Positions 1,364 through 33,587 of a stretch of DNA of 34,108 bases are shown one piece after another. The stretch is from a virus: positions 1 to 34,108 of the IMG/VR virus record IMGVR_UViG_3300030114_000029. One strand, given 5' to 3'. The first letter of the stretch is position 1. Every line of letters starts with the position of its first letter. The notes beneath the pieces were generated by a model. The model searched no databases. It was not told where the DNA came from and saw nothing but the letters and a program-made list of their open reading frames with translations. The translations under genes and the position numbers were made by a program.

Positions 1364-2769
1364 CAGTCGGCCTCGTTCTGAGCAATGGCCAGGCCGTCTT
1401 CCATCACAATGCCAATCTTGCCGCTTGAGTCCACGCGCGAGATCCAGATCTGATAGTCAAACTCCTCGGCCATCTCGGCCAGCAGCTTGAGCCCGTCTTC
1501 GTCCAGCGCCTCGCCGTGCGGTATGCGCATCACGCGCAAGGTCGGGTTCAGCGCCATGCCCAGCCTGGTCGAGATCCTGATCGCCTCACCCTCGCCCAGG
1601 TTGGCCAGCGGCAAGCCGTTAAACGTCACCTTGGCCTCGTCAAAGCTCAAGCCCTCAACCGGAATCTTGGCCTCCCTGAGCGCCTTGCGCTTCTTCTCTT
1701 CCCTGCCCGCCATCTTGTCGCTCAAGGCCTGCGCCTCTTTCTCCTTGGCGGTCAGCTCGGCTTTCACCTTGTCATAGCGCTGGCGGTCTTCGATCGCGCG
1801 GTTGGTGCGCTGCGCGCTTTGCAACTCGGCCGTCAGTGCGCCCACGTCCACCGGCTCACCGCTCGGCGCGGCTTCGTGCGCCCGCTCGGCCTCGGTCAAG
1901 GCCTTGCCCAGCGTCTTGTTCTTGTCGCTCATAATCTTCAGGTTGTCTTTCGCCTGTTTGAGCTGGGTTTCAAGCACCGCAATGGTTTGCGTGATCCGCT
2001 CGGCCTCGCGTTCGCCGCCCTCAAAGGCCTGCCGCGCCTGTGTCACAGCCTGCCCAAGATCCTGCTTGGCTTTGAAAGTCTCCTGCATCCGGCGGTTGGC
2101 TTCGGCGGCCTCGTCCAGCTTGGCCAAGATCGCGCTCTCGTCCAGCTTCTCTTTGGGCAGTCCCTCAAGCGCGGTCATGTTGTTCAACTGCGCTTCAAGC
2201 TGCTTCACCTGGCGATTGACGAGCGTGCGCTCGGCATAGTCGATCTCGTTGGCGTTGTTCAAGTCGTCAATGTCCACATCAAGCACAACAGCCTTGCGTA
2301 GCGTCTCCACCTGCTCAGCCGGTGTCATGCGGGTAAAGGCCAGCGGGTCAAAGGCCAGCTCGCCCACAATGCCGTCAAGCATCGCCTGGGGCGTGTCCCA
2401 TGCCGTCTTTCCCTTGGCCATCTCAAGGGTCAGTGTCGGCAGCGCGCTATCCTGTCCCAGCGTCCGAGTCACGGTAAAGGCTCCAAACACTCCCTTGACG
2501 CGCAGTTTCTCGGCTCCGTTGCGCAGAGCCTTCACCGGCAGGGCGGCTTTTCCCTTGAGCAAAAACCAAAGCGCATCGAGCGCGCTGGTCTTGCCCTGGC
2601 CGTTCTTGCCGGTAAACTCTACGATGTGCCCCAGCTTGTCGAGCCTTAGCACTCTGATCTTCTTGAAGTTCTCTGCCTCAAAGGCAAGCAGTTTATCGAC
2701 GCCCGCGGCCTTTGCCGCCGCCCGCTTCTCCCCATCGCTCAGGTTCCGCTTTTCGTTATCCGCCTTCAT
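1363..2769 (-). CDS. SMC/SbcC-like AAA ATPase (ATP-binding coiled-coil protein)
   Basis: About 468 aa from the ATG at 2769, which has GGGAG just upstream; a longer frame reaches 2802 but its ATG lies inside a palindrome. The order is: an N-terminal head with FEAENFKKIRVL, a Walker A GKNGQGKTSALDAL about 45 residues in, a long charged coiled-coil middle, and a C-terminal head with a degenerate Walker B-like strand (LRVMRIPHGEALDEDG). This is the RecF/SbcC/Rad50-type ATPase often found in phage recombination modules with RecT/exonuclease genes, which may lie beyond the left edge. It probably uses ATP to organise DNA ends or single strands. It follows the ParA/RHH pair and a repeat cluster that likely contains its promoter. 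Confidence 0.85.
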   Translation of the reverse strand: MKADNEKRNLSDGEKRAAAKAAGVDKLLAFEAENFKKIRVLRLDKLGHIVEFTGKNGQGKTSALDALWFLLKGKAALPVKALRNGAEKLRVKGVFGAFTVTRTLGQDSALPTLTLEMAKGKTAWDTPQAMLDGIVGELAFDPLAFTRMTPAEQVETLRKAVVLDVDIDDLNNANEIDYAERTLVNRQVKQLEAQLNNMTALEGLPKEKLDESAILAKLDEAAEANRRMQETFKAKQDLGQAVTQARQAFEGGEREAERITQTIAVLETQLKQAKDNLKIMSDKNKTLGKALTEAERAHEAAPSGEPVDVGALTAELQSAQRTNRAIEDRQRYDKVKAELTAKEKEAQALSDKMAGREEKKRKALREAKIPVEGLSFDEAKVTFNGLPLANLGEGEAIRISTRLGMALNPTLRVMRIPHGEALDEDGLKLLAEMAEEFDYQIWISRVDSSGKIGIVMEDGLAIAQNEAD

Positions 2770-2794
2770 TCGCTCCCACTCTTTCCGCCCACTG

Positions 2795-2810
2795 CTATAC
2801 ATTTGTATAG
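2795..2810. promoter_or_regulatory. 16-bp perfect palindrome at the AAA ATPase leader
   Basis: CTATACA-TT-TGTATAG is a perfect inverted repeat lying between the 11-bp repeat cluster and the ATPase start. On the minus strand it contains TATACA, a plausible -10 element. It therefore looks like an operator overlapping a promoter, perhaps for the RHH protein encoded just upstream. Confidence 0.5.
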
Positions 2811-2813
2811 TGT

Positions 2814-2879
2814 GTGCAATTCATGTGCGATTAAGATGTATCATATGTGCAATTCATTTGCAATAGCTTTGCAAATTAA
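2814..2879. repeat. Cluster A of phased 11-bp direct repeats (six units)
   Basis: Six consecutive 11-bp units in + strand orientation: GTGCAATTCAT, GTGCGATTAAG, ATGTATCATAT, GTGCAATTCAT, TTGCAATAGCT, TTGCAAATTAA. The core (G/T)TGCAA recurs each helical turn. The cluster occupies the gap between the RHH gene (whose stop it overlaps) and the AAA ATPase. The order of units matches cluster B upstream of parA. Such arrays are typical of centromere/operator sites bound by RHH partition proteins, or of iterons. Confidence 0.75.
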
Positions 2880-3124
2880 ATTCCCATCTGCTCCATCTTC
2901 TCGACTGCGGCCGTTGAAAAAAATGCGTTGCGGCTCACGCCCAGCCGGCCAGCGGCCACGCCCACGCGCTCATAGATCGCCGCGTCAAAGGCCAGCGTCA
3001 CATTGCGCCTTGGCTGCTTGGCTTTGGTTGTGGGCGCGCTTGCGCGCTCTCTTGCCGGCGCGGCGATAAATGCGTCTTCGTCCATTCCTTTTTTCCGTCT
3101 GCTTGGGTTCGCTGCTATCGGCAT
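2876..3124 (-). CDS. Ribbon-helix-helix DNA-binding protein, ParG-like partner of ParA
   Basis: An 82-aa protein starting at the ATG at 3124 behind a very strong AGGAGGAAGG, 3 bp after the ParA stop. The N-terminal half is basic and probably disordered (PSRRKKG, KAKQPRR). The C-terminal half fits an RHH fold: strand RRNVTLAF, helix AAIYERVGVAAGRLG, turn, helix SRNAFFSTAAVEKMEQ. Size and layout match ParG/omega-type centromere-binding proteins of type Ib partition systems, which also repress their own operon. Repeat clusters lie on both sides of the parA-RHH pair and are the obvious candidate binding sites. Confidence 0.75.
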   Translation of the reverse strand: MPIAANPSRRKKGMDEDAFIAAPARERASAPTTKAKQPRRNVTLAFDAAIYERVGVAAGRLGVSRNAFFSTAAVEKMEQMGI

Positions 3125-3127
3125 CGT

Positions 3128-3853
3128 TTACCTTCCTCCTGCGGCTATGCTGAGCCCTTGTGCTTTTTTGTAGACTTGTCCATCAAACAGCGCGCTTGTG
3201 AGCCGATCCAGATCCTCGCGCGCCTTGGCCGTGGCCTCCCGTTGGTCTGGGTCGTTCAACTCAAAGACACTCAGCCCGAGCGCCGCCGCATTCGGGTAGA
3301 CCTTACGCCTGGTCAACTCGGCCGTGGCCAGCTCCAAGCCTGGCACGTTCCGGATGTACTCTGCGGCCTCGCCGTTGTCTTTGCCCTGCGGGTCGGCCTG
3401 GTTGAGCACAGCCACGGCGCGCAGTTGCTCGTTGATCTGGCGGGCATCGCCAATCAGGTCGGCCATCTGGTCGATGGCCCACAAGTCAAAGCTGCGCGGC
3501 TGCACGGGTATCAACACAAGGTCCGCCACAACCAGCGCGGCGCGCAGCCCGCCCGTGTCCCGACCTCCCACGTCGATAACTATATGGTCGTATTTAGACC
3601 TAAGCAGTCTGCATTGAGTTTTGATCGCTCCCTCGCGCAGCTCGATCGCCGTGTATCCCAGGCCCTTCTCTTGCCAATGTTGTATCGAACTAAATCGATC
3701 ATTGCGCAGTTCAGTAAAGGCCGCCGCCGTGCGCTGCTCGTCGCCGTCGATCAGCAAAACCTCGTTCCCTTGGCGCGCGAGCCAGATGGTCAGATTCACG
3801 GCCAGCGTGGTCTTGCCCACACCGCCCTTGATGTTCCCTACAGCTAATATCAC
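3128..3853 (-). CDS. parA: ParA/ParF-family partition ATPase
   Basis: About 241 aa from the GTG at 3853, which sits 5 nt after GGAGGGGAA. The longer frame to 3895 would read through the promoter repeats, so I reject it. Motifs: deviant Walker A NIKGGVGKTTLAVN near the N-terminus, LLIDGDEQRT as the A' strand, and Walker B YDHIVIDVGGRD. There is no N-terminal helix-turn-helix extension, so it belongs with the short ParF/type Ib ATPases of plasmids. It is followed by a ParG-like RHH gene and preceded by 11-bp repeats. The inferred role is segregation of a low-copy extrachromosomal prophage, working with the RHH protein and the repeats. Confidence 0.88.
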   Translation of the reverse strand: MILAVGNIKGGVGKTTLAVNLTIWLARQGNEVLLIDGDEQRTAAAFTELRNDRFSSIQHWQEKGLGYTAIELREGAIKTQCRLLRSKYDHIVIDVGGRDTGGLRAALVVADLVLIPVQPRSFDLWAIDQMADLIGDARQINEQLRAVAVLNQADPQGKDNGEAAEYIRNVPGLELATAELTRRKVYPNAAALGLSVFELNDPDQREATAKAREDLDRLTSALFDGQVYKKAQGLSIAAGGR

Positions 3854-3868
3854 TTCCCCTCCCCTTGT

Positions 3869-3874
3869 GTTATA
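3869..3874 (-). promoter_or_regulatory. Probable -10 element for the parA operon
   Basis: On the minus strand TATAAC lies about 16 nt before the parA start and abuts repeat cluster B; the matching -35 position (about 3892-3897, CTATGA) is poor and lies inside the repeats. Binding of the RHH protein to the repeats would occlude this promoter, consistent with autoregulation. Confidence 0.4.
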
Positions 3875-3875
3875 C

Positions 3876-3919
3876 GTGCAATCCATGTGTATCATAGGTG
3901 CAAACCGTTTGCAATAGCT
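3876..3919. repeat. Cluster B of phased 11-bp direct repeats (four units), upstream of parA
   Basis: Units in + orientation: GTGCAATCCAT, GTGTATCATAG, GTGCAAACCGT, TTGCAATAGCT. They are in the same order as the corresponding units of cluster A at 2814-2879, and the last unit is identical. The array lies immediately upstream of the parA promoter, where type Ib partition operons keep their centromere/operator. Confidence 0.75.
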
Positions 3920-3932
3920 TTATTTTGGGCGC

Positions 3933-3969
3933 AAAAAATCCGGAGAGGATTGGCAAAACTCCTCCCCGG
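3933..3969 (-). terminator. Rho-independent terminator ending the late operon
   Basis: On the minus strand an arm CCGGGGAGGA, a 10-nt loop and an arm TCCTCTCCGG (9 of 10 pairs) are followed directly by ATTTTTT. It sits 20 bp after the last structural-operon gene and just before the parA promoter repeats, so it separates the late operon from the partition operon. Confidence 0.85.
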
Positions 3970-3989
3970 TATCAGGTTTGGAATACTGG

Positions 3990-4541
3990 CTAGAGTTTAG
4001 CCCTGGCCAGCTCTCTATGCTTCTCGATGAGTTCGTTCCACGCCGCCTTAAAGTCGCCCTCGGGGCTGCGGCCGAGCCGATGGTGGATCACGGCATGGGC
4101 GTAAACGTCTGGTATCGGCGCGCGCGCGGCCATCAGTTGGGGGTTTGCGGTGTGGATGTTTGAAATCAGGATCTCGATCGCCGCTACCGCGATCGGCACC
4201 AGCATCGCAAACGGCGCGGTCACAGGGATTGCAGCCAAGATCACTTCAACGCCGGCGGCGAGTGAGGCAATGATCGCGGTCGGGTTTCCGGTCTGCCAGT
4301 TGGCGGTAGCCGCTGCCAGCGCCTGGGCGGCCGTGGTGAGCTTCTGGGCTATCCCGGCGGGGATGGCGGGGTCGGCGGCGATCGAGAGGCAGGCCTGGGC
4401 CACGGCGGCACCATCGGCGGCAATCTGAGCGTCAGAGATGGTGCAGGCAGTCATGGTGAGCGTGGCGGGGGCGAGCGAGGCCATGGTCAAGACGTTGACC
4501 CAAAGGCTGCTTGCGGTTAAAACTGCGATGATCCGTTTCAT
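3990..4541 (-). CDS. Putative secreted/lipoprotein membrane protein of the lysis region
   Basis: A 183-aa protein with AGGAGA 4 nt before the ATG at 4541. The N-terminus is a signal-like segment (KRIIAVLTASSLWV) reaching a near-lipobox TMTAC at Cys33, with Met in place of the usual aliphatic -3 residue. The middle is Ala-rich and contains a long hydrophobic stretch around residues 95-125. The C-terminus is polar and helical. It is the last gene of the late operon, after a coiled-coil membrane protein and before the terminator, where phages often keep lysis genes. Spanin-like or other membrane roles are possible but not shown. Confidence 0.6.
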   Translation of the reverse strand: MKRIIAVLTASSLWVNVLTMASLAPATLTMTACTISDAQIAADGAAVAQACLSIAADPAIPAGIAQKLTTAAQALAAATANWQTGNPTAIIASLAAGVEVILAAIPVTAPFAMLVPIAVAAIEILISNIHTANPQLMAARAPIPDVYAHAVIHHRLGRSPEGDFKAAWNELIEKHRELARAKL

Positions 4542-5041: not shown

Positions 5042-7534
5042 CTACTGCATTTTGTATTGGACGCTGATGTTCATCACGTTTGGAGCTGTGGTGCACGTGC
5101 CTCCACTCGATGCCAAGGTGATTGTTGTTCCGGCGGCATAGTTTTGAGATAGTCCCGTGCACTTGTTTGACTTCGCCGCCGTCAGGGCGCAGCTCACAGT
5201 GTTGGTTCCATCCGACAAAACGATCGATGGAAAGGCCGTGCAGGCTGGTGTCGAGTTGGCCTGCGAGTTGAGCGACCAATCAATTCCAATCACCGTGATT
5301 GCCGATGCGGGCGTAATCGAGTTAAAAGTGTTTGCACCTGCAAAGTTGGCTGAGTTGCTCATCGTGCTCCAGCTCATCACCGGTAATCCGACGCCGTTTG
5401 AGTCGGGAAATTCCCAAGTCCGATTCGCCGTGCAGGCAGTGCATTTCAGCGTCATCGAGCGATTGGCCGCATTGCCGAAAGCAATGTTTTGGAAAGGCAG
5501 CGATGGCAGTCCTAACACTGACCAGGCGGCGACGGTCGGGAATATCTGGCCGCCCGATGAGGTTCCGGTCATGTTCAAAAACGGGTAATAAGTCGCGCCT
5601 GAGAGCGCCGAAAAAAGGTATCCAGACCCGCCGGCCTTGACCGTCATATTCACGACAGTTTGCGCCGATCCATCAAAGTAATCGCTGATCACATGAAAAG
5701 GATGTGGAACTGTTAAGTTCCCTTGGGTCTGAACGCCTGGTGCGCCGCCAATCACAATCACCTGGCCGGCGGCTGTGGCCAAAGCCTGTATTCCATTCAG
5801 CGAGATAATGCCCGAGTTATCCAACGAGCAGAGCGGCGCTGCAGATCCCCATTGCACCGTGTTGGTGAAGGTGGCTGAGTCGATCGGGTTTGAGGCAATC
5901 GTGCAAGGGGTGGGAGCCGATACGGCCGTAGAGACATAAATGGCCGCGGGCAGTGTCGCCTGCGGGTTGCTGCTTGAGTTGACGATCGTGTTTCCACCTA
6001 CATAAAACGCAGCTATATTCCCATCTACAAATACCGGCCAGCTCGTGTACGGTCCTCCCGTCGTTTCGCCTCCCCACCAGCCATCAAAGGTGTTCGAGGC
6101 CAGCGAGAATTTATTGAGGTTTCCGATCATCGCGGTCACACCCTGATAGGTATTCCCTGTCACCGTGTATCCGCTTGCAAAAGCCGCCGTGTAATAGGTG
6201 ATTCCAAAAGTTGTATGGCAGCTCGCGCCCGGTCCGGCATAGCTTCCCCGCCATCCATAGGCGACCGCCTTCGAGTCGCAGAAAAACTGGTTTCCGATCA
6301 CCCGCATGTTGGTGGGCGAGATGATGGTCCCGCTGCTGCAGCTCGTTCCAGTTCCTCCAATGCAGGTTTGCCCGATCGACAGAGCATCCGTAAAAGTGTT
6401 GCGAACTGTGTTTCCAATAAACTCCCCGTCCCACATATTGGCTCCGTCGATTCCTCCCGAGGTCCACCAAGGCTGGTGCCCAAAATCGGCAGGGCCGCGC
6501 ACAGTGTTGCCGATGACGTGAGAGCGCACGTTGCCACACTTAAAGGTGTCGCCTTGCTCGTCGATCTTGTTGCCGATACACCACGTGTCTTGCGAGATCG
6601 CCATATCGCTCAGCGATGTGGGGTGAGCAATATCGCCTCCCAGATCAATGCTCACCGAGTTTCCAGCATCTGTTCCCGCCACGTTGATGCCTGTCTGGTG
6701 AAAGTAGTTATTGATCAGCCATACTCGGCATGAGCCTCTAAAGTCGATTCCTCTGTGTCCTGCTCGCGTCACTTCTAGATCTTCAATTCTTACGTCAGAG
6801 AGGTTGCAGCCCGGATAGGTGTTAAAGCTGCTGGTGTTTGAGGCGATCGCGGTGTAGTAGGGTCCGGCGTCCTGATTGTCTTCGTTCCAGTCGAGCTTGA
6901 ATCCTTTGAGCGTGATCCGTTTCCTGGCTCCCAAATAAAAAGCGATGGCCTGATCGGCGTGTGTGGGCTGAGTGATTACGCAGCTTTTGCTGGCTCCTTC
7001 AAAAGAGAAATCGTCGGTCGCGATGTTGACGCATTTGTTTTGTCCGGTCGAGCAATTAATCTGCACTTTGCAGCCGGTAATTTTCAGAGGGTTCGATACC
7101 GTCAAGGTCGATGTGAGTGTGATCGGTGACGAAACAGCGCTCATATCCAAAGTGCTGCCAGCCGGAGCAGCAGCAACCGCACTGACAAAGTTGGCTGCGC
7201 TTGTGACTTGAAAAGTAGATCCGATCGAGAGAGATGGCGTTCCAAGCGTGTTAGTAGTGACGTTGTAAGTCAGCCCCGGAACGGCAGAGAATGCTCCGCC
7301 GAGGTTAAATTGAATCTGCCCGTTTGCGCCCGCCGGGTTCGCCGCTGTTCCAATCGCCACGCATCTGTTCGTGAGCCAGTTGTAAACCATGATGCCAGAT
7401 CCCGAGCATCCCGCCGGCCATTTGATTCCAGTGTGGGGGTTCACCTGGCCGAGCGCCGCCGCCGAGCAAGCCGCCAGCAGCGCAGCCCATTTCAGACCGT
7501 TACGAAACCACGCATAGAGCATCGATCCTGTCAT
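5042..7534 (-). CDS. Tailspike with right-handed beta-helix region and N-terminal signal-like segment
   Basis: 830 aa. The N-terminus (residues about 5-30) is basic, then hydrophobic, then AAALGQ, looking like a cleavable Sec signal. This is odd for a virion protein assembled in the cytoplasm. A short Cys-containing domain (WPAGCSGSGIMVYNW...CVAIG) and PAGANGQIQFN follow. The central part contains repeated short strands with asparagines (VIGNTV, FIGNTVRN, VTGNTYQG, LASNTFDG, VGGNTIVN) typical of a parallel beta-helix depolymerase or spike. The C-terminal 200 residues are beta-rich with paired Cys. It probably binds or degrades surface polysaccharide. Start could be 7534 or the ATG at 7522, behind ACAGGAT. 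Confidence 0.75.
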   Translation of the reverse strand: MTGSMLYAWFRNGLKWAALLAACSAAALGQVNPHTGIKWPAGCSGSGIMVYNWLTNRCVAIGTAANPAGANGQIQFNLGGAFSAVPGLTYNVTTNTLGTPSLSIGSTFQVTSAANFVSAVAAAPAGSTLDMSAVSSPITLTSTLTVSNPLKITGCKVQINCSTGQNKCVNIATDDFSFEGASKSCVITQPTHADQAIAFYLGARKRITLKGFKLDWNEDNQDAGPYYTAIASNTSSFNTYPGCNLSDVRIEDLEVTRAGHRGIDFRGSCRVWLINNYFHQTGINVAGTDAGNSVSIDLGGDIAHPTSLSDMAISQDTWCIGNKIDEQGDTFKCGNVRSHVIGNTVRGPADFGHQPWWTSGGIDGANMWDGEFIGNTVRNTFTDALSIGQTCIGGTGTSCSSGTIISPTNMRVIGNQFFCDSKAVAYGWRGSYAGPGASCHTTFGITYYTAAFASGYTVTGNTYQGVTAMIGNLNKFSLASNTFDGWWGGETTGGPYTSWPVFVDGNIAAFYVGGNTIVNSSSNPQATLPAAIYVSTAVSAPTPCTIASNPIDSATFTNTVQWGSAAPLCSLDNSGIISLNGIQALATAAGQVIVIGGAPGVQTQGNLTVPHPFHVISDYFDGSAQTVVNMTVKAGGSGYLFSALSGATYYPFLNMTGTSSGGQIFPTVAAWSVLGLPSLPFQNIAFGNAANRSMTLKCTACTANRTWEFPDSNGVGLPVMSWSTMSNSANFAGANTFNSITPASAITVIGIDWSLNSQANSTPACTAFPSIVLSDGTNTVSCALTAAKSNKCTGLSQNYAAGTTITLASSGGTCTTAPNVMNISVQYKMQ

Positions 7535-8090
7535 CTGGAACCCCCGATTCAGTTGTAAAATTCAGCGTTGCCACGTTGCCCACTGCGGTATAGCTCAGAG
7601 TTGGCGCCGCAGCTCCGGCCGGCAGGGCCGAGCCGTTATAAAACAGCATCACGATCGCGCCTGGAGCCGTGTAGACTGAGCCCGGCACGGCACCTGCGCA
7701 TGGCCGATACTTCATCTGCGGGATTGGCGGCAGAGATCCGCCCGGCAAGATCTGTATAGCGGTCGACAGATCCACCGTCGCCGTTCCGTTAAATTGGTAG
7801 TTTCCGCTCTGGATCGCATTGCCTTCTTCGTCCAGCACGGTGATGCAATAAAACGTTCCCGCCGGCGTGATCTGATCGTTTCCCCAAAGCGCGATCGAGA
7901 TCGCCGTGTCGCCAACCTGGGGCCCCACGGTCTCAGGGATGCCCGCATTGGCAACCATGCCCGCGCCGGCCACGGCTGGCAGAGCTGGGCCAAAGCCGCA
8001 AAGGGTAATCTGCAAGCTTCCAGCCAGGCTCACACCGGCAAGGATGCTCTTCAGATCTGCTGTGAGCGTGATTTGCGGTGTCGTCGCCAT
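7500..8090 (-). CDS. Tail fibre-type structural protein
   Basis: 196 aa from the ATG at 8090; GAGGGAT lies about 9 nt upstream. It is beta-rich with ITLTADLKSILAG, LQITLCGFGPALP, then SIALWGNDQITPAGTFYCITVLDEEGN and IQSGNYQFNG. I recognise this LWGNDQI..A.T.Y.I.VLD..GN..QSG.Y.F.G pattern from tail-fibre modules of acidobacterial phages and prophages. Its stop lies 35 bp inside the tailspike gene, so the two are coupled and likely form one adsorption apparatus. Repeat cluster C lies just upstream. Confidence 0.7.
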   Translation of the reverse strand: MATTPQITLTADLKSILAGVSLAGSLQITLCGFGPALPAVAGAGMVANAGIPETVGPQVGDTAISIALWGNDQITPAGTFYCITVLDEEGNAIQSGNYQFNGTATVDLSTAIQILPGGSLPPIPQMKYRPCAGAVPGSVYTAPGAIVMLFYNGSALPAGAAAPTLSYTAVGNVATLNFTTESGVPDDRIDALCVVS

Positions 8091-8122
8091 CGGGCTAATC
8101 CCTCGTTTCCTTTGCTTTTCAT

Positions 8123-8144
8123 GTGCAACTCATGTGCGAATCAC
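8123..8144. repeat. Cluster C: two units of the 11-bp repeat before the fibre gene
   Basis: GTGCAACTCAT followed by GTGCGAATCAC matches the first two units of cluster A (GTGCAATTCAT, GTGCGATTAAG) in sequence, order and 11-bp spacing. It occupies the 50-bp gap before the tail-fibre gene and overlaps the stop of the hydrolase-like gene. It may be a secondary binding site for the factor that recognises clusters A and B. Confidence 0.6.
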
Positions 8145-31966: not shown

Positions 31967-32209
31967 ATGAGAAGCAACAGAAAGATTTCCGCCAAAAAAC
32001 CAAAGGGAACTGGTCTTGACAAGCTCATCCGGTTTGAAAACAGAGAACAGATCGAGTACATCGAAGAAGCGGCGCGGCGGCGTGGTTTCAGCTTTACCGC
32101 GTTTGCTCGTTTAGCTTGCACGGCGGTTGCTGGGCGAGTGATGGCGTTGCCAGTCGATCCGATCTTTGAAACTGTCGCAGACGCCTTAGATGAGGAGACG
32201 GCAGCCTGA
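31967..32209 (+). CDS. Ribbon-helix-helix regulator (DUF1778/CopG-like)
   Basis: 80 aa on the plus strand from the ATG at 31967; no Shine-Dalgarno is visible and the -10 lies just upstream, suggesting leaderless translation. A basic N-terminus (RSNRKISAKKPKG) precedes an RHH core: LDKLIRFENREQIEYIEEAA, then RRRGFSFTAFARLACTAVA. The F-E-N-R-E-Q-I..IE.AA.R.GF..TAFAR pattern is one I associate with small phage and plasmid regulators. Divergent from RusA and upstream of replication, it is well placed to control the early/late switch. Confidence 0.7.
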   Translation: MRSNRKISAKKPKGTGLDKLIRFENREQIEYIEEAARRRGFSFTAFARLACTAVAGRVMALPVDPIFETVADALDEETAA

Positions 32210-32570
32210 TTTGAGAAAAACTCAATAAGTGAGCAATTTGGAACAAGTCGATATAAGATTGGCGCGTAATGATGATCGTTCCCAGCGTGGCGCTGGAGCG
32301 GTTTCTTACGCTTTTTGTTCCCGTTCGCGCTCGCCCTGACGGTCACCGTCACACACTCCGTTCGCACACCATCCCGCTCTCCAACCGCATACCGAGTCAC
32401 CCACCGCGCACTCATTGCGCGGTACACGTGTCGGTGTACGTGTCGGTGTACGTGTCGGTGTGTGGACGCTACCGTCGCGGCGTAACCAGAAAAACGCGCG
32501 TTTGTTCACGCGATGTTATCGACAGAGCGTGTTTTAGAGAGTTTTTTGCTCTTAGAAATGAGGCTGATAA
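32210..32570 (+). other. 360-bp structured intergenic region, candidate replication origin
   Basis: No convincing gene. In order: a hairpin CCAGCG-TGG-CGCTGG (32282-32296); a 15-bp palindrome TGACGGT-C-ACCGTCA (32337-32351); a perfect 8-bp stem ACCGCGCA/TGCGCGGT with a 5-nt loop (32403-32423); three perfect tandem copies of a 12-mer (32426-32461); and TTATCGACA (32516-32524), one base from the DnaA-box consensus. GAGG before the next ATG serves the replication protein. This density of structure next to a replication gene suggests an origin or its control region. Confidence 0.5.
32426..32461. repeat. Three perfect tandem 12-bp repeats (ACGTGTCGGTGT)
   Basis: ACGTGTCGGTGT occurs three times head to tail without mismatch, immediately after an 8-bp hairpin and about 110 bp before the replication gene. 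It is an iteron-like array; the units are too short and unspaced for CRISPR. Confidence 0.75.
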
Positions 32571-33587
32571 ATGCCTGCAAAATGGCAGACCTGGATGCCG
32601 CGTCAGATCGACGCTTGGCATGGAAGTACCTTTGTTCAGTTTTCACATCCAGCAGCTCGCGACGGCTATGCCTGGCTGCTCGATAAGCAGTGGCAGTCTG
32701 AGGACTGTACAGTGCCTGACGATCAGCAGGAGTTGTCTGAATTGAGTGGTTTAGGGGCCGAGTTATGGGAGATACATGGGCCTAGAATCTTGCGAAAATT
32801 TCCTGTTTTTGAGGATGGAAAGAGGCGCAACCAGGTCTGTTATTTGCTTTGGTCGGAAGCCAAGAGAGTCTTTGAATCACGCCAAAAAGCCGCCCACGAA
32901 ACCAACCTAAAACGTGCGCAAAAATCCGAAGCCGCGCGATTGCGCCGCGCAGAGCGGACGGTGACCGTAACGCCGAGCCCACACACGAACAGGGACAGGT
33001 TAAAAGAGCAAGTACAAAAGCTACCCCCCCCAACCCCCCCGCAAAAAAAAGCGGGGGGGCTTGCATCGGTCGACCGTCAGGTGGCGCAGCGATCTGCGGC
33101 GAAGCTCGGAGCATCGCAGCTCGCAGCATCTAAAGGAAATGAAAGGCGAAAACGATCAGGAGGCCCTGTAACGGCCTCGGTGGAGGCGGGTGAGGGAAAG
33201 GGCCACGGCAAGTCTGGCGAGAGCACCAGCATACCTACAAAAAATGTTGCTCCTAGTGTCAAACAAGGGGTCAGACCCACAAAAGAGCAAAACGGGTTTG
33301 ATCGCCGGCATGAGGGTTTTCGGAGTGAAGTTTTTGCGTTCTGGCGGGAGTTGAATAAAGAGAGTCCAGAGTGCCCTTGGGGCGGGGGAGATCGAGCGCT
33401 GGCTGCGCTGCTCTCGGATGCTCCAAGCATGACGCTGGCAGAGTTCCGGCGGCTGCTCCACAACCGGGCCGCGTCGGAGATCAATTCGGCGGCGATTCCT
33501 AGCAGTTGGCTACGCAAGCTCAAGGAGTACTCGGCAGGGCCGCTTGATCGCTTTGGCAAGCCGTTCGGCGGTGGGCGTGTATTGTGA
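32571..33587 (+). CDS. DUF1376-like phage replication protein
   Basis: 338 aa from the ATG at 32571, GAGG 8 nt upstream. The N-terminal 120 residues resemble DUF1376/YdaU: MPRQIDAWHGSTFVQFSHPA, GYAWLLDKQWQSEDCTVPDD, then a Trp-containing helix and CYLLWSEAKRVFESRQKAA. A low-complexity linker with homopolymers follows (about residues 150-235). The C-terminal domain has EVFAFWRELNKESPECPWGG and NSAAIPSSWLRKLKEYSAGP, as in helicase-loader/initiator C-termini. It is likely the replication initiator or loader, acting at the structured region upstream. Confidence 0.7.
   Translation: MPAKWQTWMPRQIDAWHGSTFVQFSHPAARDGYAWLLDKQWQSEDCTVPDDQQELSELSGLGAELWEIHGPRILRKFPVFEDGKRRNQVCYLLWSEAKRVFESRQKAAHETNLKRAQKSEAARLRRAERTVTVTPSPHTNRDRLKEQVQKLPPPTPPQKKAGGLASVDRQVAQRSAAKLGASQLAASKGNERRKRSGGPVTASVEAGEGKGHGKSGESTSIPTKNVAPSVKQGVRPTKEQNGFDRRHEGFRSEVFAFWRELNKESPECPWGGGDRALAALLSDAPSMTLAEFRRLLHNRAASEINSAAIPSSWLRKLKEYSAGPLDRFGKPFGGGRVL
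33034..33059. repeat. Perfect C7GC-A8-GCG7 hairpin inside the replication gene
   Basis: A 9-bp all-GC stem closes an A8 loop within the linker-coding part of the replication gene, preceded by a further C8 run. It is in frame (PPQKKAGG). Such runs are prone to slippage and could act as a transcription pause or phase-variable site. Confidence 0.7.

Follow-up and report, generated by a model that had tools for sequence, protein, structure and literature searches.

Introduction

The repeat sequences of ribbon-helix-helix (RHH) centromeres differ between plasmids, and this makes such centromeres hard to find. Some features of the systems closest to the one described here were already known. These are the location of type Ib arrays in promoters, the placement of two arrays around parA-parB, and a TTGCA core that recurs every 11 bp. 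In pSM19035, one dimer of the RHH protein ParB binds per repeat, and the repeat arrays overlap the promoters of three genes (PMC9499535). The stbDRs of R388 are 9-bp TTGCATCAT repeats with two-nucleotide spacers, which gives a period of 11 bp around a TTGCA core. Two sets of five lie around a promoter, and two or three copies are found in three other promoters (PMC3098194). Among phages, five of five KS14 lysogens yielded the prophage DNA as a plasmid (PMC3091744). Here, a putative type Ib-like partition cassette is described in a stretch of viral DNA of 34,108 bp, called the window, which is the entire IMG/VR virus record IMGVR_UViG_3300030114_000029. The cassette contains parA and a gene for an 82-aa RHH protein, P0001, and is flanked by two arrays of 11-bp units. 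The 11-bp phasing is a property of the ParA/RHH family and not of the window phage alone.

Partition genes and repeat arrays

The cassette and its border contain the following features.

parA, 3853-3128, minus strand: GTG start; 241-aa Walker ATPase, a short form without the N-terminal helix-turn-helix (HTH) region
RHH gene (P0001), 3124-2876, minus strand: 82 aa; predicted centromere-binding protein and repressor
SMC/SbcC-like ATPase gene, 2769-1363, minus strand: ATG at 2769; matches phrog_1499 (7.9e-83)
Array 1, 2803-2879, no strand: seven 11-bp units at the RHH gene end, directly upstream of the SMC-like gene
Array 2, 3865-3919, no strand: five 11-bp units upstream of parA

On the minus strand, the order is parA, the RHH gene, a gap of 106 bp, and the SMC-like gene. 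Array 1 sits between the RHH stop codon and the ATG at 2769, and its last unit overlaps the stop codon. Its units are in one register and read TTGTATAGTGT GTGCAATTCAT GTGCGATTAAG ATGTATCATAT GTGCAATTCAT TTGCAATAGCT TTGCAAATTAA. Those of array 2 are TTGTGTTATAC GTGCAATCCAT GTGTATCATAG GTGCAAACCGT TTGCAATAGCT. The two arrays share the same orientation, and the 46-bp blocks at 2825-2870 and 3876-3921 are 80% identical with their units in the same order. A preliminary description of this DNA had claimed a ParF-like ATPase gene and an 82-aa RHH gene flanked by two 11-bp arrays, and this was confirmed by the gene calls, the 80% identical block, and the shuffles. Three points go beyond that description: the outer units (2803-2813 and 3865-3875), the location of array 1 just ahead of the SMC-like gene, and a third site at 8123-8144.

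The phasing of array 1 is beyond chance. In the gap at 2771-2875, the match at lag 11 was 0.45 with a z of 3.9 (2000 dinucleotide shuffles). The array 1 value was reached at any lag from 4 to 30 by 0.5% of the shuffles of this gap and by 2.2% of those of the core (2803-2879). For array 2, the lag-11 value was reached at lag 11 by 0.75% of shuffles. The strongest autocorrelation of any 66-bp stretch in the window, at lags of 5-40, was a 33-bp lag at 2801. With lag 11 alone, the top stretch was at 8104 (0.56), the location of the third site, followed by 2813 (0.55). There are 28 (G/T)TGCAA words on the plus strand of the window, seven of them inside arrays 1 and 2. As single-stranded DNA, both arrays had a secondary-structure z of -0.73.

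A matrix trained on eight units of arrays 1 and 2 was used to look for further copies. The best phased pair outside the arrays scored 20.8; among 200 random windows, the 95% point was 19.2 and the maximum was 22.0. This pair is located at the gap that precedes a conserved gene.

Third site, 8123-8144, no strand: two 11-bp units; 18 of 22 bases as in 2814-2835, counted by eye
196-aa gene, 7500-8090, minus strand: function unassigned; follows the third site and is conserved in the sisters

The gap is 50 bp long in the window versus 7-11 bp in six of six sister records with the same gene pair. It is unlikely that a lineage-specific stretch made of array units arose at 8123-8144 by chance. The 196-aa gene is present in 7 of 11 records, including the window, and the sister proteins are 47-58% identical; no PHROG match was found for the window protein. 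Judged from position only, the conserved gene cluster around the 50-bp gap may consist of late genes.

Identity of the ParA and RHH proteins

ParA was matched to PHROG 164 (3.9e-51), with the alignment covering only profile positions 225-473 of 500, the ATPase part, and to Pfam AAA_31 (2.2e-22). The profile of its family matches ParF (4dzz) at 3.9e-16 over 5-210 of 214 positions. The match to NCBIfam NF041546 reached 158.8 bits, which is below the cut-off of 180. ParA thus has the short form, without an N-terminal HTH domain, that is expected of type Ib. A small RHH-class protein is encoded beside parA, as is also expected of type Ib at the gene level, and its centromere binding is predicted.

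P0001 has an N-terminal DAFIAAP motif, a strand (RNVTLAF), and two helices. It belongs to the RHH fold class, as judged by profile, Pfam members, and predicted model. Its best family match was PHROG 18157, ‘transcriptional repressor’ (2.4e-7), and NCBIfam gave a sub-threshold match to the BrnA antitoxin (0.0025). The profile A3, built from 44 P0001 relatives, finds CopG first (1e-4), and 31 of the 44 relatives match RHH_1 individually. In the AF2 model, helices are located at 48-61 and 65-79; the mean pLDDT per block is >90 from residue 41 and ~57-60 in residues 1-30. The top Foldseek matches of the model were CopG, MazE6, and Arc, with a probability near 1. The protein had been called ParG-like at first. 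This holds for the architecture and not for homology, as the partner profile matches CopG-type RHH proteins and a ParG chain was absent among its 20 PDB matches (E up to 1).

An N-terminal F-I motif is common among the relatives, and F[IVL]xx[AG] was found in 96 of 168. F19 and I20 are at least 90% conserved in A3, although most of its rows were drawn from a set preselected for a motif of this kind. It is plausible that the motif is the contact with ParA. The RHH family was reached through ParA loci and not through P0001 searches. When P0001 alone was used for a direct search, none of 166 candidate stretches in viral contigs was confirmed and no phage record was matched at E up to 0.1.

Phasing across the ParA/RHH family

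A total of 182 ParA loci were compared. These were the window, 3 of 127 matching phage records, 14 plasmids, 4 + 80 viral contigs, and 80 bacterial contigs. The plasmids were hand-picked from 60 among at least 5000 that matched. Four viral contigs came from a first scan; the other viral contigs were the 80 best among 411, and the bacterial contigs were the 80 best among 487. A candidate RHH-type ORF, recognized by iterated profile or motif, lies directly downstream of parA in 168 of the 182 loci, and the 14 loci without one were dropped. Clustering at 70% RHH identity gave 133 clusters, and the upstream sequence was long enough in 132 of them.

Over the 220 bp preceding parA, the mean z was 2.01, 1.51, and 1.10 at lags of 11, 22, and 33, and ~0.35 at the 26 other lags (Wilcoxon p 1e-14 for lag 11 versus the mean of the other lags). 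At lag 11, the mean z was -0.27 in control stretches within parA, 0.00 in those 1 kb upstream, and 0.10 in those 1 kb downstream. Upstream of parA, 56 of 132 clusters had their best lag at 11, 22, or 33 versus 5/133, 18/120, and 19/120 in these controls, and a lag-11 z of at least 3 was found in 37 of 132 versus 1/133, 7/120, and 7/120. Viral loci (28/65) and cellular or plasmid loci (28/67) were alike in their share of such best lags. This recurrence upstream of parA supports the earlier suggestion that the phased 11-bp repeats beside a type Ib-like pair are a likely binding array. The unit itself varies by lineage. GATATC types occur in several, AACGTT in L145, AATATT in L148, and TTGCA in the window. 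No prior account of 11-bp phasing as a rule for the ParA/RHH family was found in the literature searched, which left subscription journals mostly outside.

Two flanking arrays were also considered as the family norm, and this was rejected. Phasing downstream of the RHH gene is weak but present, with a mean lag-11 z of 0.57, a z of at least 3 in 13 of 129, and a best lag of 11, 22, or 33 in 27 of 129 (Wilcoxon p 0.006). As a separate observation, the region upstream of parA at L002:5500-5960 is AT-rich with many degenerate short repeats, and its last 220 bp have no 11-bp period (lag-11 z of -1.4).

Sister phages and the probable plasmid state

Virion genes for a terminase, an SU10-type portal, and a major head protein are present in the window, which is probably a fragment of a fuller genome. 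Among 30 records searched, three of 42.7-43.9 kb share the window portal at 75-81% identity, and a fourth sister has a head protein 78% identical to that of the window. All four possess parA, 55-62% identical, and parA was found in 5 of 11 records including the window. A 6.3-kb viral contig, L192, encodes a head protein 100% identical to the window's over 208 residues and has no parA match; it is probably a piece of a near-identical phage.

In the ParA tree, the window groups with the four sister phages with a support of 98/76, below the strict mark. The window, the sisters, and two acidobacterial contigs form a set of seven with a support of 100/97. The SMC-like gene is conserved in the sisters but lies away from parA there. 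In the four sisters, parA lies past the SMC-like gene, at a distance of 4.6-7.5 kb and on the opposite strand, whereas in the window it adjoins the other side of this gene on the same strand. The flanks of the four sister cassettes (203-220 bp upstream and 160 bp downstream) hold the window-type unit once, in G002, where TTGCAC is followed by a TGCA word 11 bp on and by GATAT words beyond; it was found in none of the cassette flanks of L023, L025, and G031. G031 has a GATATC-type 11-bp array upstream of parA (p 0.001, base shuffles). As the position and the unit differ and the ParA tree still groups these phages, it seems that, within this group of phages, the cassette has been relocated and its repeat unit has changed. 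A sphingomonad plasmid was considered as a source from which the cassette was captured; this is not favoured, given that the tree groups the window with the sisters and the acidobacterial contigs.

The ParA proteins nearest to that of the window are in the two acidobacterial contigs, L103 and L104. There are hints of an acidobacterial host. In addition, the matches to the SMC-like gene in L206 and L207 (sister records G001 and G034) contain a TAG codon.

Of the marks of a phage-plasmid, virion genes, partition genes, and the lack of an integrase match were found. Neither a tyrosine integrase (PF00589) nor a serine recombinase (PF00239) was found in the 11 records, which may be incomplete; three of them are 42-44 kb. 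The Rep_3 initiator (PF01051) is present in 2 of the 11 records, several of which are fragments, and both are sisters. One is G031 (L199:1-240), where four TTGTGCCAAAACCCAAG iterons, three of them ~20 bp apart, lie ahead of the Rep_3 gene, with inverted copies behind these iterons. The phage-plasmid proposal of the preliminary description is supported indirectly by the missing integrase and recombinase, the two Rep_3 genes, the iterons and 11-bp array of G031, and the plasmid prophage of KS14, a distant relative. These findings add to the evidence that a group of phage-plasmids exists in the environment, possibly in acidobacteria.

Proposed function and alternative explanations

We consider it likely that the locus is a type Ib-like plasmid partition cassette of a temperate phage that is probably kept as a plasmid. 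By analogy with pSM19035, the arrays most likely serve both as operator and as centromere. At each 11-bp unit, a dimer of the 82-aa RHH protein would place its two-stranded ribbon in the major groove, and the 11-bp step would place successive dimers near the same face of the DNA. When loaded, the arrays at 2803-2879 and 3865-3919 would form centromere-like sites. They would also be operators at the expected promoters of parA and the SMC-like gene. A sigma-70 promoter scan of 2600-4100 found none, so the promoters of the cassette are assumed from position. The N-terminal tail, which is probably unstructured and contains the FI motif, could touch nucleoid-bound ParA-ATP and stimulate ATP hydrolysis, which would move sister genomes apart.

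Several results weigh against this interpretation. No Pfam RHH match was found for P0001 on its own, and the Foldseek E-values for its model were all >0.1. When all lags are considered, array 2 alone is not significant (15% of shuffles, 29% for the core) and is only suggestive, yet its likeness to array 1 is plain. In the family, under half of the clusters (56/132) have a best lag of 11, 22, or 33; the remaining clusters may have arrays that are decayed or displaced, or none. The closest plasmid relatives, L009 and L011, are weakly phased (lag-11 z of 1.2 and 0.8), and so are the sisters L023-L025 (1.2-1.8). The window-type unit is nearly absent from the sister flanks, and the (G/T)TGCAA repeat is hardly conserved, with one occurrence in the flanks of the four sister cassettes. 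Two findings in related genomes had been set beforehand as grounds for refutation, an integrase and repeats that are not conserved. The repeats are hardly conserved, and the integrase was absent from 11 of 11 records. Rep_3 (PF01051), the only initiator family searched, was not found in the window. A link between RHH strand residues and the unit is also unsupported. The raw Mantel correlation was 0.146 for outward positions (p 0.0015, 38 loci) and 0.003 for inward positions, but k-mers of control DNA, taken from the upstream flank, from parA coding DNA, and from beyond the RHH gene, had an equal raw correlation (0.146-0.163), so that relatedness confounds this link. With RHH identity, flank composition, and GC controlled for, 0.065-0.125 remained at the outward positions (p 0.0065-0.086) and the inward positions were negative. 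This residual correlation is suggestive only and was left unused as support.

Other explanations for the arrays and for the cassette can be given. The arrays could be operators only, with the RHH protein autoregulating parA-RHH and co-regulating the SMC-like gene and the gene at 8090, and with the centromere elsewhere or the genome unpartitioned. RHH proteins are often simple repressors, and the best family match of P0001 bears that annotation. Each of the three sites directly precedes a gene start, and array 1 is at the SMC-like gene, from which parA is 4.6-7.5 kb away in the four sisters. Five to seven contiguous phased units, however, exceed the needs of a simple RHH operator. Operator and centromere coincide in pSM19035, and its ParB is described as requiring at least four contiguous repeats for full ParA activation, which arrays 1 and 2 supply (PMC9499535). 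We regard a role of the arrays as operators only as quite unlikely. Repeats near plasmid par genes are often iterons, and G031 has iterons ~2 kb from its parA array; the arrays of the window could in this way be iterons of a replication origin beside the partition operon. The G031 iterons, though, are ~20 bp apart, have another sequence, and lie beside Rep_3, and a separate 11-bp array is present upstream of parA in that genome. As the window has no Rep_3 match and the 11-bp phasing tracks parA across loci with varied neighbours, an origin at these arrays is very improbable.

The phage might also integrate or be lytic, and the cassette might then serve incompatibility or gene control and not plasmid maintenance. 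This is unlikely, as no integrase or recombinase was found even in the three records of 42-44 kb and Rep_3 is present in two sisters. Nevertheless, an integrase could be missed, as the window is probably incomplete and so are several of the sister records. Some actinophages are described as carrying both integration and parABS modules (PMC11652158).

The partition cassette of a plasmid prophage, as preferred here, can be extended tentatively, although the extension is on the whole doubtful. The RHH centromere protein would also be a regulator that ties segregation to phage genes. In this lineage, the unit would have changed from a GATATC type to a TTGCA type, the cassette would have moved beside the SMC-like gene, and an operator of two units would have been gained in the 50-bp gap. 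G002 could represent an intermediate of the unit change, as its TTGCAC and TGCA words are spaced by 11 bp and GATAT words lie beside them. More widely, a large ParA/RHH family of phages and plasmids would share 11-bp phased arrays as a grammar in which the unit drifts freely. If this is true, an RHH-DNA recognition code would be readable from genomes. A family-wide 11-bp spacing rule would locate many RHH centromeres in plasmids and phages without a known motif. It would also supply matched protein-DNA pairs for determining how the RHH ribbon reads DNA. The findings raise the question of whether partition proteins control other phage genes.

Other features of the window

No Rfam matches at gathering thresholds and no tRNA genes were found in the window. 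Near the right end, an 80-aa ORF (31967-32209, plus strand) resembles, by eye, a second RHH/CopG-type protein; it has no NCBIfam match. At 32420-32472, ~4 tandem copies of a 12-bp unit, GTGTCGGTGTAC, were seen by eye upstream of the ORF at 32571-33587. This ORF has a weak DUF1376 match, under its cut-off. The 12-bp tandem repeats are possibly an origin.

Comparison with known systems

Like the pSM19035 delta/omega system, the window has a small ParA, an RHH partner, and contiguous short-repeat arrays, and in that system repressor and centromere functions are combined (PMC9499535). The repeats described for pSM19035 are 7-bp WATCACW units in mixed orientation, unlike the 11-bp units in the same orientation found here. 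Its genes are also reported to be separately transcribed (PMC5016525), and it is a plasmid and not a phage. TP228 ParF/ParG/parH resembles the window in its short ParF-type ATPase, its RHH partner with a probably flexible tail, and a site upstream of the operon (PMC5016525). The two differ in that the partner profile of the window finds no ParG chain.

The arrays that flank the genes of pB171 par2 have a repeat unit and a period that differ from those of the window. The arrangement is similar, as two centromere arrays (parC1 and parC2) flank parA-parB there according to the construct order in PMC4270457. The R388 stbDRs are like the window arrays in their 11-bp period and TTGCA core, and the repeat, at first taken to be new, is therefore new only in part (PMC3098194). 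StbA of R388 is not known to be an RHH protein; P0001 is in the RHH class. The closest phage systems are those of the Burkholderia phages KS14 and FLC5. Their ParA proteins are 43-44% identical to that of the window over the match, and they possess a small RHH-type partner with an FI motif as well as 11-bp arrays. KS14, a distant relative of the window phage, has its 11-bp arrays upstream of parA and between parA and gp41 (0/1000 base shuffles each), and the array of FLC5 is clear (lag-11 z of 5.2). Unlike the window, both phages have a GTTGATATCAA-type unit and a P2-like virion.

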